Source: Clostridia bacterium (GTDB lineage: Bacteria; Bacillota; Clostridia; Monoglobales; Monoglobaceae). From it: a stretch of DNA of 64,000 nt. The notes under the pieces are model-generated. The model ran no database searches. It saw nothing but the letters and a program-made list of their open reading frames with translations, and was not told the origin of the DNA. Positions 20,425 through 63,743 of this stretch are shown piece after piece. Where the stretch lies: positions 1 through 64,000 of the forward strand of contig JAFQSM010000036.1 of assembly GCA_017409575.1 (NCBI GenBank). The letters run 5' to 3'. Numbering within the stretch: the stretch's first letter is position 1; the number at the start of each line of letters is the position of its first letter. Position numbers and translations under genes: made by a program.

Positions 20425-23037
20425 TCAGTTTGTCAATTCATCGAGCTTTTCGCGAATCAGCGTCAAAAACTCAGCATTTTGCGGGCTCAGGTTGTTTGTT
20501 TCAATTATATTTCTTACCATTTTTTCGACATTCAAAACATCTTCCTGCAACGCCTTTGCCGAAAGTCTGAATGCTCCGCTTCCAAAAATTATCATCTGCT
20601 CCAAGAGGTCTGACGTTGCAACCGTAACCCTGTAATGTTTGCTTAATTCTTTGGCTGTTTTTTCGATGTAAGAATCCGCCGTCTGCGCTTCTTTTGTATA
20701 AACAACCGATATGCCGCCTACATTGTCAACTTCGCCGCGATTACCTTTGACACGATAAGCATCAAAAACAACTATTACCTCAAATTTTTTAAAAGCTTTA
20801 TATGACGAAATTCTTTCAACAAGGCTTGTTCGTGCAGCTTCCATATTTTCTTTAGCGATTTCCTTGAGTTCATCCCACGAAAAAATTATATTGTAACCAT
20901 CTATAAGAAGATATTCTTTTTCTGCCTTTTTCACAAGCTTTTTGTATGGTTTGACCGGCATCACATCTTTTGGCGTTCTCATAGTTTTGTTTGGATTTTT
21001 TTGTTCGATTTTTCCGTAAGTGTGCTCAAAGATTTTTAAAAGTTCTTCATCTGATATATCGCGTCTTGTTGATAACCTTGATGTTTTAACAACATCAGGA
21101 GCGGATTTTTGTTTAAGAATACTTTCAAGATGCATATGATCAGGAACTTCGTCCCACTTTACCGTAAATCCTGCGCCATGAGAACAAAATACCGAATCCG
21201 CCGTGTTTTCGATGTCAGAATCGCAATCGTAAGCTATCTTTTCTACTATGCTGTCCTGATTGAGGCACGGACCATATTTTCCAAATTTGCAGCTTAACTT
21301 TCCTTTTCCGTGGGTATATTCAATCAAATCACGCTGATAATTCTGGATTGCTGCGGCAGGTACAACTCCCGAAATTTTTGAGAAATCCCCTCGTGTCTCG
21401 GGTGCTGAAAATTCTGCTCCAAAACTGCTGAGGTCAGTCATTGCACGCCCGATATTTTCTGTCGGGACTTGGAGAGTAAATTCATAATACGGCTCAAGCA
21501 AAACGCTTTCTGCTCGCCTCAAGCCTTGTCTTACTGCACGATAAGTAGCTTGCCTGAAATCTCCGCCCTCAGTGTGTTTCAAATGTGCACGACCGGCTTT
21601 CAATGTTATTTTTATGTCCGTAATTGGTGAACCGGTAAGGACTCCTGAATGTTCTTTTTCCATCAGATGTGTCATTATAAGACGCTGCCAGTTTTTGTCA
21701 AGCTCATCTTCGGGACAATCACTTTCAAATTGCACGCCTGATCCCTCAGGGAGCGGTTCAAGCAGCAAGTGCACCTCGGCATAATGTCTTAAAGGTTCGT
21801 AGTGTCCTACGCCTTCAACAACATTTTTTATGGTTTCTTTATAAAGAATTCTGCCTTCCTCAAATTCTACCTCAAGATTAAATCGCTTGTATATAAGTTG
21901 TTTCAAAACTTCAAGCTGTACTTCTCCCATAATCCTGAGATTGATTTCCTTTGATTGCTCATTCCATGAAACAGAGAGCTGGGTCTCTTCCTCTTCCAAT
22001 TGCTTTAAAAGCGAAAAAGCAACCATACTGTCGGTGTTTTCCGGCAAAATAACTTTGTAATTAAAAATCGGTTCTGCCGTCAGCTTTTCGGAATTGCTTT
22101 CAAAACCAAGGCCTTGTCCCGAATAGGTTTTGCCAAGCCCGGTGACAGCACACACAGTTCCGACTTCTGCAACATCGATATTTTTATATTTTGCGCCCGA
22201 ATATACACGGATTTCATTTACTTTTTCAGATATTTCGCCGGTGTTTACACTTTCCTTTACCGAAAGGCTGCCACCGGTAATTTTCATAAACGTCAGGCGT
22301 TTGCCCTTGTCGTCCTGAGAAATTTTAAAAACCTTTGCTCCAAAAACCGGAAAAGCAGAAACTTGCTCGGTATACTCTGAAAAACCCTTCAAAAACTGCT
22401 CAATTCCAATCATTCTAAGAGCAGAACCCGAAAAGCAAGGGAAGACATTACGCAGCTTTATGCTTCGTCTTATGGAATTTGCAGAAATACTGCCGGTTTC
22501 CAGATATTCATTCATCAGTTTTTCATCACAGACAGCCAGATTTTCAAAAAGCTCAGCTTCTTCAGTTCCGCAAAAATCAACAAAATTCTCATTGAACTCT
22601 GCCCTCAGGTTATCTATAACCTTGTTTTTGTCTGCACCTTCAAGATCAAGCTTGTTGATAAAAACAAATGTTGGAATTTTGTGCGACGCCAAAAGGTCCC
22701 ACAAATTTTTTGTATGACTTTGCACTCCATCTGTCCCGCTGATTACAAGAATTGCGTAATCAAGAACCTGCAGAGTTCGTTCTGCCTCAGCGGCAAAATC
22801 CATATGACCGGGTGTATCAATAAGCGAAATCTCGGTATTTTGAGTTTTGAATACTGCCTGTTTAGAAAATACGGTTATTCCTCGTTTGCGTTCAATCTCG
22901 TCGGTGTCCAAAAAAGCATCTTGGTTGTCAACTCGTCCAAGGGTCCGTATTTCACCTGCTGTATACAAAAGAGCTTCCGAAAGAGTGGTTTTTCCAGCAT
23001 CTACGTGCGCCAGAATTCCTGTTACAATTCGTTTCAT
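20425..23037 (-). CDS. TetM/EF-G-like ribosomal GTPase fused to a C-terminal YacP/Rae1-type NYN nuclease
   Basis: 870 residues. Residues 1-640 match ribosomal-protection GTPases: P-loop AHVDAGKTT (10-18), RGITV (52-56), DTPGH (74-78), NKLD (128-131), and EF-G domains III-V including the VVPAAAIQNYQRDL block. After a linker, residues 710-845 are a YacP/Rae1-like NYN domain: LLIDGYNIIFSW, VVFDAYRVKGNRGEV, TADSYIEK and VATSDLLEQ, with Asp713, Asp759 and Asp788 as likely metal ligands. Rae1 cuts mRNA in the ribosomal A site, so the fusion suggests ribosome-associated mRNA cleavage or rescue. Tetracycline resistance is not implied. The nuclease part lies at 20425-20910. Confidence 0.87.
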   Translation of the reverse strand: MKRIVTGILAHVDAGKTTLSEALLYTAGEIRTLGRVDNQDAFLDTDEIERKRGITVFSKQAVFKTQNTEISLIDTPGHMDFAAEAERTLQVLDYAILVISGTDGVQSHTKNLWDLLASHKIPTFVFINKLDLEGADKNKVIDNLRAEFNENFVDFCGTEEAELFENLAVCDEKLMNEYLETGSISANSIRRSIKLRNVFPCFSGSALRMIGIEQFLKGFSEYTEQVSAFPVFGAKVFKISQDDKGKRLTFMKITGGSLSVKESVNTGEISEKVNEIRVYSGAKYKNIDVAEVGTVCAVTGLGKTYSGQGLGFESNSEKLTAEPIFNYKVILPENTDSMVAFSLLKQLEEEETQLSVSWNEQSKEINLRIMGEVQLEVLKQLIYKRFNLEVEFEEGRILYKETIKNVVEGVGHYEPLRHYAEVHLLLEPLPEGSGVQFESDCPEDELDKNWQRLIMTHLMEKEHSGVLTGSPITDIKITLKAGRAHLKHTEGGDFRQATYRAVRQGLRRAESVLLEPYYEFTLQVPTENIGRAMTDLSSFGAEFSAPETRGDFSKISGVVPAAAIQNYQRDLIEYTHGKGKLSCKFGKYGPCLNQDSIVEKIAYDCDSDIENTADSVFCSHGAGFTVKWDEVPDHMHLESILKQKSAPDVVKTSRLSTRRDISDEELLKIFEHTYGKIEQKNPNKTMRTPKDVMPVKPYKKLVKKAEKEYLLIDGYNIIFSWDELKEIAKENMEAARTSLVERISSYKAFKKFEVIVVFDAYRVKGNRGEVDNVGGISVVYTKEAQTADSYIEKTAKELSKHYRVTVATSDLLEQMIIFGSGAFRLSAKALQEDVLNVEKMVRNIIETNNLSPQNAEFLTLIREKLDELTN

Positions 23038-23127: not shown

Positions 23128-23937
23128 TTATAGAGATAGACTAAATAATCTTTTTGCGTTTCCGCTGAATATTTTTTGATTATCCTCATGGGTAAGACCA
23201 AGAGAAATCATATTTTCAAGTTCGTCTTTTGCCCGCCACATTGGATAATCTGTGCCGAATAAAATTCTGTCGGTTCCGTACCTTAGGGCAATTTCCTTAA
23301 AGTCTATTCCGTCAGCAAAGCCAAAGCTTGACGAACAATCAACATAAAAATTTTCAATACCCGAAAGTTTTTTTACCGCTTCGTCCCACACAGACCAACC
23401 GCCAAAATGTGCCCCGATAAATGTGAGTTTTTTAAAAGTGTTTAAAACATTTAACACTCTGTCAGGGTTTGAATTGTCATAGCGTTTGTCGCCGGTATGG
23501 ACAAGCATAGCGAGATTTTGTTTTTCACAGATTTCATAAGCCACAAAAAGCTTCTCGTCATCAATCCTGAATCCCTGAATATCCGGATGAAGTTTAACAC
23601 CTTTAAGTCCAAGTTCTGCAAGGTGTTTTATATCTCCGGCAATGTCGTCACTGTCAGGGTGAAGTGTGCCAAGACCTGTCAAAAATCCATTACTGTTCTT
23701 TACTTCATCTGCGATAAACTCGTTGATGCTTTTTACTTGTTTTGGGGTTGTTGCAACTGATTGAACAATAGCGTGGTCTATTCCGTCTCTTTTGCACACT
23801 TTTTGAAGGTCTTTTACGGTACCTTTCCCGTACCCCTCAACATCATAAAATTTATCGGTTGCTCCCGACGCTTTTGCGGCAATTTTTTCGGGATAAATAT
23901 GGCAATGGGCATCAATTACAAAATAGTCATTAAACAT
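23128..23937 (-). CDS. Amidohydrolase-family (Amidohydro_2) TIM-barrel protein
   Basis: 269 residues. The family motif DAHCHIYPEK is at the N-terminus, with LKGVKLHPDIQGF and AMLVHTGD in the middle, FIGAHFGGW and the C-terminal DRILFGTDYPMW carrying the last metal-binding aspartate. It belongs to the ACMSD/Amidohydro_2 group of metal-dependent hydrolases or decarboxylases; substrate unknown. It follows ilvE by 39 nt and may be the last gene of the T-box-controlled operon, although an independent promoter cannot be excluded. Confidence 0.82.
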   Translation of the reverse strand: MFNDYFVIDAHCHIYPEKIAAKASGATDKFYDVEGYGKGTVKDLQKVCKRDGIDHAIVQSVATTPKQVKSINEFIADEVKNSNGFLTGLGTLHPDSDDIAGDIKHLAELGLKGVKLHPDIQGFRIDDEKLFVAYEICEKQNLAMLVHTGDKRYDNSNPDRVLNVLNTFKKLTFIGAHFGGWSVWDEAVKKLSGIENFYVDCSSSFGFADGIDFKEIALRYGTDRILFGTDYPMWRAKDELENMISLGLTHEDNQKIFSGNAKRLFSLSL

Positions 23938-28351: not shown

Positions 28352-28386
28352 GAAAAACCCATCTCAAAGAACAGCTTTGAGACGGG
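28352..28386 (-). terminator. T-box-controlled terminator
   Basis: On the minus strand CCCGTCTCAAAG pairs with CTTTGAGATGGG around a CTGTT loop and is followed by TTTTTC. It lies between the T-box sequence and the first gene, as expected for transcription antitermination. Confidence 0.88.
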
Positions 28387-28389
28387 TGA

Positions 28390-28650
28390 AATCACTCGCG
28401 GTACCACTCAAATTGCGGAGTTCTCCGCCACTCATCGGGTTCGACCAAGCCCTTTGCTTTAACGCAGCAATCACGGAAGGTATCTACTCACCTCTTAAGC
28501 AGAGGTTTTCTCACCTTCGGCTCGGAAGTGATGGGTACATTGAAGGGCGTACTGCCGGTTTTCACCAACCACCGGTTCTCTCAAAAGCAAACCTCTTCGC
28601 ACCGTCTTCGTCACAGCCTTTAAAATAATTAGCTATTATCCAATTACAAC
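28390..28650 (-). promoter_or_regulatory. T-box riboswitch leader, probable Ile (AUC) specifier
   Basis: On the minus strand the T-box core GAGTGGTACCGCGAG lies at 28395-28409 and the stem I apical region AGAGAACCGGTGGTTGGTG upstream. Following the 3' side of stem I, the triplet ATC at 28530-28532 precedes ACTTCCGAG, the usual place of the specifier, pointing to uncharged tRNA-Ile. GUA (Val) a few bases earlier is the alternative. Downstream are terminator and a P-loop/VOR/ilvE operon. When the tRNA is uncharged the operon should be transcribed. Confidence 0.85.
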
Positions 28651-28657
28651 ATCAACA

Positions 28658-28686
28658 ATTATACCACTCGTATTGGGCATTGTCAA
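28658..28686 (-). promoter_or_regulatory. Consensus sigma-A promoter of the T-box/VOR/ilvE operon
   Basis: On the minus strand: -35 TTGACA (28681-28686), 17-nt spacer, -10 TATAAT (28658-28663), a perfect consensus just ahead of the T-box leader. Confidence 0.88.
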
Positions 28687-59586: not shown

Positions 59587-59637
59587 ATCATATGCAAAAT
59601 TCAAAAACCAACAATAATATATGCATAGTATGATAGC
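59579..59637 (-). promoter_or_regulatory. Antiterminator of the lysine riboswitch
   Basis: On the minus strand the 3' strand of aptamer P1, GCTATCATA-TATGC (59623-59637), can pair with GCATA-TGTGGTGGC (59579-59595). The latter is the 5' arm of the terminator, so P1 and terminator formation are mutually linked and lysine turns the operon off. Confidence 0.65.
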
Positions 59638-59797
59638 TCTCCGCATTTGCGACAACAAACAAGATATTATTCCTGTTTGCCAGACCAATCCTTTGCCACG
59701 AATTGTCTTCGGCGTCTGCCCCTTTCGGCAAATCCCGCTTTTGGCACAAGCGTATATGGATTTTCTTACTTTTGACACAACGCGCCTCTATCTAATA
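59630..59797 (-). promoter_or_regulatory. Lysine riboswitch (L-box) aptamer
   Basis: On the minus strand the hallmark AGATAGAGGCGCG (59781-59793) is followed by AAGTAAG, GCCGAAAGGGG, CAGACGCCGAAG, and the closing GGAGAGCTATC, with GATAG and CTATC forming P1. The arrangement agrees with the lysC leader of Bacillus. It lies directly upstream of dapA-lysA. Confidence 0.9.
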
Positions 59798-59801
59798 TAT
59801 G

Positions 59802-63625: not shown

Positions 63626-63708
63626 AATCGTAATCCCTCCTATTACCCAAGACTCGCCAAGTCAGGTGCTGTAAAACAGACTTCAAAAAACCTTTTTTGC
63701 GCGGTTAC
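63626..63708 (-). promoter_or_regulatory. Ribosomal protein L21 leader
   Basis: On the minus strand ACC-T-GACT pairs with AGTC-TT-GGGT around a TGGCG loop, just before GGAGGG. The surrounding CAGCACCTGACTTGGCGAG resembles the L21 leader motif of Firmicutes. Confidence 0.6.
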
Positions 63709-63714
63709 CGTAAT

Positions 63715-63743
63715 ATGATAACACAATTCACCATATTTGTCAA
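63715..63743 (-). promoter_or_regulatory. Promoter of rplU-rpmA-obg
   Basis: On the minus strand: TTGACA (63738-63743), 17-nt spacer, TATCAT (63715-63720). Confidence 0.75.

Follow-up and report, generated by a model that had tools for sequence, protein, structure and literature searches.

Why would an operon for a VOR, a 2-oxoacid:ferredoxin oxidoreductase of a type commonly annotated as catabolic, lie behind a T-box leader, and one with an isoleucine specifier? The question is raised by a locus of Clostridia bacterium (Monoglobales; Monoglobaceae), assembly GCA_017409575.1, contig JAFQSM010000036.1, of which positions 1 to 64,000 of the forward strand were analyzed; this whole stretch of 64,000 nucleotides is referred to as the window. 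That branched volatile fatty acids act as growth factors of ruminococci was recognized in the early 1960s, and labelling has shown that they are converted to amino acids. To our knowledge, the genes for this conversion and their control have so far been only loosely assigned. The original prediction for this locus, made from its sequence, was that VOR runs reductively and that the aminotransferase IlvE aminates its product to isoleucine.

The T-box leader and the VOR operon are all encoded on the minus strand of the window, and the genes follow the leader in the order P-loop protein, ferredoxin, VorB, beta, gamma, and IlvE (Table 1). The promoter, the Stem I features, the T-box core, the ATC specifier, the terminator, and the operon order that had been proposed are all present.

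Table 1. Features of the T-box leader and the VOR operon, with positions in the window
Feature	Position	Strand	Details
Sigma-70 promoter TTGACA-17-TATAAT, extended -10 TG	28658..28686	-	12/12 matches
T-box leader RNA (Rfam RF00230)	28375..28623	-	83.6 bits, model 1-219, E 8.5e-19 genome-wide
Stem I of the T-box	28519..28618	-	Three helices with compensatory changes
Specifier triplet AUC (isoleucine)	28530..28532	-	Rfam alignment; alignment columns 100-102; flanking helix 100% paired
T-box core GAGTGGTACCGCG (GAGUGGUACCGCG as RNA-feature entry)	28397..28409	-	Bulge UGGU can pair with tRNA ACCA
Intrinsic terminator, 13-bp stem and T-run	28357..28387	-	5' arm of the stem shares sequence with the 3' arm of the antiterminator
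P-loop ATPase-like protein, 220 aa	27652..28314	-	Present in each of the VOR operons seen
2[4Fe-4S] ferredoxin-like (delta) subunit, 68 aa	27428..27634	-	
VorB, alpha subunit of 2-oxoacid:ferredoxin oxidoreductase, 354 aa	26354..27418	-	NF005507 539.9 bits, cut-off 399
Beta (TPP) subunit, 253 aa	25593..26354	-	
Gamma subunit, 177 aa	25060..25593	-	
IlvE, branched-chain amino-acid aminotransferase, 354 aa	23977..25041	-	TIGR01123 402.7 bits, cut-off 250; NF009897 486 bits, cut-off 307
Amidohydrolase-2 family protein	23128..23937	-	Possibly the final gene of the operon

The window leader falls short of the RF00230 gathering score (93) and is therefore passed over by Rfam's default scan; a permissive scan of the stretch detects it. 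Orthologous leaders pass this score (congener L011, 95.1; L018, 94.0), so the T-box nature of the window leader is not in doubt. The register of the specifier was examined by aligning Stem I of 45 orthologous leaders and counting the pairs of a hand-named structure. Standard pairs made up 96.1%, with two-sided changes in 12 of the 13 pairs, and pairing fell to 21–49% when the structure was slid by 1–3 columns. The helix flanking the specifier (columns 18–21 with 104–107) was paired in 100% of the cells, in the variants GAAG/CUUC, GGAG/CUCC, GAAA/UUUC, and others. Both the Rfam alignment and the pairing in the orthologues thus place a branched-chain codon, AUC, in the specifier loop, as the covariance-model fold proposed with the original prediction would have it. 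The same rule yields the expected codon elsewhere: UUC at pheS and, in related genomes, AAC, ACC, and UGG at asparagine (asnS/asnB), threonine (thrS), and tryptophan (trp) genes, respectively, all of these genes being identified by eye from their translations. For the orthologues read as GUA (Val), the alternative UGU (Cys) was discarded: GUA is constant but can be preceded by T, C, or G, and the flanking helix fixes the register on GUA. The leader is confirmed as a genuine T-box with an AUC (Ile) specifier, lying between promoter and terminator, and its response is predicted to be to uncharged tRNA-Ile. Antitermination by uncharged tRNA is established for T-boxes (reviewed in PMC7583486). Six further T-boxes are found in the genome of the window.

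Among the encoded proteins, VorB scores above the VorB cut-off and not above those of the 2-oxoglutarate models. In the same family-model search, the beta and gamma subunits matched no specific family above cut-off, and for beta, gamma, and delta the 2-oxoglutarate models score about as high as the VOR models. With no specific family assignment for beta and gamma, and with the ligases of the regulon reaching about half the MbcS cut-off, the substrate range of the VOR cannot be read from the sequence. The P-loop protein, which is kept in VOR operons both with and without a T-box, may be an ATP-dependent factor that matures or activates VOR. Downstream of IlvE, the amidohydrolase-2 gene may belong to the pathway, because the start of a similar gene is seen in genome G009 (locus L221) after a TIM-barrel/ligase fusion that lies behind a Leu T-box.

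A VorB search of named genomes gave 80 loci, nearly all of them in MAGs of herbivore-gut or rumen Clostridia. The original prediction had proposed looking for T-boxes before vorB in related genomes, and a T-box core was found upstream in all 69 of the loci with a visible leader, along with linked, T-box-controlled ligases resembling MbcS. In the other 11 loci, the available sequence reaches no further than the upstream ligase gene, stopping within it or at its start. The specifiers scored in the VOR operons are all branched-chain: GUA (Val) in 59, CUC (Leu) in five, and AUC (Ile) in three. Three leaders fell outside the scoring by script: by eye, L078 reads AUC; the visible part of L066 is consistent with GUA; and L068 is without a recognizable Stem I. 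Within the genus of the window, CUC is found in all seven other operon-bearing genomes and AUC in the window genome only, so that this Ile specifier is known from a single genome assembly. The two codons are one base apart, and positions 28530–28532 are a natural single-base change of T-box specificity. Because the orthologues carry Val, Leu, or Ile specifiers, the operon would answer to the branched-chain amino acids as a group. An anabolic VOR working with IlvE is supported in substance, with reduction as its probable direction, and the restriction of the product to isoleucine was too narrow. Nested in the same wider VorB clade, a group of five loci (L126–L130) keeps IlvE and has no T-box core, which makes the T-box not indispensable; an ACS-like gene is within reach in three of the five, and no RF00230 match was found near VorB in two of these genomes, G009 and G011.

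In most relatives an acyl-CoA ligase gene lies upstream of the P-loop gene, and the usual order along the string is Ile T-box, ligase A, Val T-box, ligase B, VOR genes, and IlvE. Two ligase paralogues were found in 26 of the 28 genomes searched and one in the remaining two. In the window genome the two paralogues are on other contigs, one behind AUC and the other behind GUA; other gut Clostridia have both ligases in one gene string with VOR. One paralogue invariably follows an Ile T-box and the other a Val T-box, a match between ligase and specifier that is also seen in a tree of 74 T-box-led ligases, where a single change (SH-aLRT 99) splits 22 ligases with an Ile specifier from 51 with a Val specifier. 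The leader of the Ile ligase at L245 was read as AUC from its sequence. The base 3' of the specifier, usually a purine, is C in about half of the Ile T-boxes that precede ligase A (L239, L243, L245, L247, L249, L250, L254, L257, L259, L261, and L264).

The ligases of the VOR regulon carry N-terminal helix-turn-helix and cupin domains (XRE-cupin ligases), and both paralogues score best against MbcS (NF047394), with 456 and 440 bits for an NCBIfam cut-off of 850. Judged by these scores, MbcS is the nearest characterized ligase family for both ACS paralogues, and they are relatives of MbcS rather than members of the NF047394 model. The MbcS of Staphylococcus aureus prefers 2-methylbutyrate and isobutyrate, the precursors of isoleucine and valine (PMC10026030). 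Besides their lower scores, the regulon ligases differ from it in the extra N-terminal domains and in being tied to amino-acid and not to lipid synthesis.

The presence or absence of other pathway genes was judged by family searches. The complete ilv pathway that would speak against an anabolic VOR is not encoded: no match to ilvB, ilvC, or ilvD was obtained in the window genome or in its eight congeners (9/9 genomes of the genus). Chorismate synthase (aroC) and prephenate dehydratase (pheA) were detected in all nine, so it is not credible that ilvBCD went missing through incomplete assembly in every one of them. Over a wider range, ilvC is present in only eight of the 50 genomes with the T-box operon. 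The VorB of most relatives bearing ilvC/D forms a separate clade (branch 0.45, SH-aLRT 100), whose neighbors are NadK, RecN, and an RseC-like gene (named by eye), and the VOR operons of these relatives are mostly without T-box, ligase, or IlvE; the plain ones checked for T-boxes had none. One genome, G023, in the IlvE-keeping group of five, has ilvC and ilvD alongside the IlvE-linked type of VorB.

Taken with the T-box, its specifier, and the conserved gene order, we put at about 85% the probability that the T-box-controlled VOR-IlvE operon serves the reductive carboxylation of branched acids to isoleucine, valine, and leucine, replacing ilvBCD. We infer the reductive direction of VOR, its acyl-CoA substrates, and the regulatory control in the cell as follows. 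When isoleucyl-tRNA is low, the leader would sense uncharged tRNA-Ile and antiterminate, and VOR and IlvE would be made. Branched acids from the surroundings would be converted to acyl-CoA by ligases encoded elsewhere in the genome under their own T-boxes, namely, the MbcS-like ligase (Ile T-box), its paralogue (Val T-box), and the TIM-barrel/ligase fusion (Leu T-box). With reduced ferredoxin and CO2, VOR would turn 2-methylbutyryl-CoA, and also isobutyryl- and isovaleryl-CoA, into 2-oxoacids, which IlvE would aminate to isoleucine (valine, leucine). The pathway would in this manner stand in for the lost ilvBCD route.

Because both enzymes can work in either direction and some relatives have plain VOR operons, VOR and IlvE could in principle degrade isoleucine, valine, and leucine for energy or for branched-chain fatty-acid primers, the T-box being incidental or misread. 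This is improbable, since a T-box turns genes on at amino-acid scarcity, which is the wrong sign for breakdown; moreover, the linked acid-activating ligases under Ile and Val T-boxes would be needless for degradation, and ilvBCD is missing. We give an equally small chance to auxotrophy, in which the branched-chain amino acids would be imported, VOR-IlvE would balance redox or interconvert them, and the ligases would feed branched-chain fatty-acid synthesis. Separate Ile and Val T-boxes on the ligase paralogues, followed by VOR-IlvE in one string, suit amino-acid synthesis better, even though auxotrophies are frequent in small gut genomes and the S. aureus MbcS does feed fatty-acid synthesis (PMC10026030). 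Slighter still is the prospect that the oxidoreductase uses another 2-oxoacid (e.g., 2-oxoglutarate from succinyl-CoA) and that the T-box is there for IlvE alone: the subunit make-up is like that of 2-oxoglutarate oxidoreductases and the scores of beta, gamma, and delta fit either enzyme, but VorB passes only the VorB cut-off, in most lineages the enzyme is flanked by MbcS-like ligases and IlvE, and with ilvBCD lost there would be no branched 2-oxoacid for an IlvE acting alone.

Beyond the scope of the original prediction, the VOR operon carrying out this proposed reductive synthesis is one member only of a larger regulon. Also in this genome, a Tyr T-box (UAC) is followed by genes for a symporter, an acyl-CoA ligase, and an indolepyruvate oxidoreductase (IOR), the IorA of which exceeds its cut-off (TIGR03336, 754 bits for 651). 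Behind a Phe T-box (UUC) lie a relative of phenylacetate-CoA ligase (PaaK-like) and an ACT-domain protein, and behind a Leu T-box (CUC) a LeuA-like gene and the TIM-barrel/ligase fusion. The Tyr, Leu, Ile, and Val links are found repeatedly across the genus. It seems reasonably likely that these form a dedicated regulon, in which the CoA ligase for each branched or aryl acid is under the T-box of the amino acid formed (Val, Ile, Leu, Phe, or Tyr) and feeds reductive carboxylation by VOR and IOR. It would take the place of the ilv route in many uncultured Clostridia of gut and rumen, the specifiers would reveal the substrates of the ligases, and a dead LeuA homologue would be kept, perhaps as a leucine sensor.

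The fusion protein (L123, 11175–13634, minus strand) joins a xylose-isomerase-like TIM barrel to an AMP-forming ligase behind the Leu T-box, and is a candidate isovaleryl-CoA ligase. The LeuA-like protein (L123, 13636–15042, minus strand, on contig C61 of the window's own genome), also behind the Leu T-box, retains the dimerization (allosteric) domain of LeuA, and the RDGEQ (catalytic) and HxHND (metal-binding) motifs are kept in none of 41 sequences (L123 and 40 homologues). These features suggest a conserved pseudoenzyme. The production of 2-isopropylmalate by this gene was considered and dropped, since the catalytic motifs are gone in all 41 and no separate LeuC (~425 aa) was found in the genus. 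Aryl-acid salvage as the only route to phenylalanine was also dropped: with aroC and pheA in the genome, the aromatic arm would supplement synthesis by salvage, and the case for it is weaker than that for the branched-chain arm. In G030, a genome of another family, a 9-kb contig (C50, locus L235) carries LeuA-like, TIM-ligase, and Ile-ligase genes that are 75–93% identical, through either recent transfer or bin contamination.

The leader resembles the known T-boxes of the Ile/Val/Leu type (RF00230) in the K-turn region of Stem I, the apical AGAGA/GGUGNAA, the specifier, the UGGU bulge, and the overlap of antiterminator and terminator. Its targets differ: known T-boxes control synthetases, ilv-leu operons, and transporters, whereas here they precede VOR-IlvE, XRE-cupin ligases, a PaaK-like ligase, and IOR. 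In many of the genomes here, moreover, an Ile and then a Val T-box occur along one string, each before its own ligase paralogue. Likewise, the oxidoreductase is like the VorB family (NF005507) in having an alpha subunit above cut-off and alpha, beta, gamma, and ferredoxin-like delta subunits, and is set apart by its T-box control, its linkage to ligase and IlvE, and a clade distinct from the VorB of most ilvC/D-bearing relatives.

The conversions themselves have a precedent in the rumen, where isobutyrate is converted to valine, 2-methylbutyrate to isoleucine, isovalerate to leucine, and phenylacetate to phenylalanine (Robinson and Allison 1969; Allison and Peel 1971, both as cited in PMC7356843). 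They are known as physiology and labelling, while candidate genes and regulation are named here. The T-box regulon surveys searched by text leave VOR unmentioned, and a full-text literature search gave no paper linking T-boxes with VOR, IOR, or XRE-cupin ligases. The chemistry is old (Allison, 1960s); the T-box control and the code linking ligase to specifier seem not to have been described in the searchable literature, with priority unproven.

Together with its relatives, the locus offers a defined set of candidate genes (two ligases, VOR, and IlvE) for the rumen nutritional habit described in the 1960s, and suggests a route to valine, isoleucine, and leucine in gut Clostridia without ilvBCD. 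The T-box signature may separate anabolic from catabolic VOR by sequence, and the specifier in the T-box of each ligase paralogue predicts the substrate of that ligase. The proposed route would also tie cross-feeding on the products of protein fermentation to amino-acid supply in herbivore guts.

Elsewhere in the window, positions 20425–23037 of the minus strand encode an 870-aa GTPase resembling EF-G and ribosomal-protection proteins, which scores below the resistance cut-offs and whose C-terminal tail, by eye, resembles an NYN nuclease domain. Rfam also detects a lysine riboswitch (59626–59798) and an L21 leader (63640–63716), both on the minus strand.
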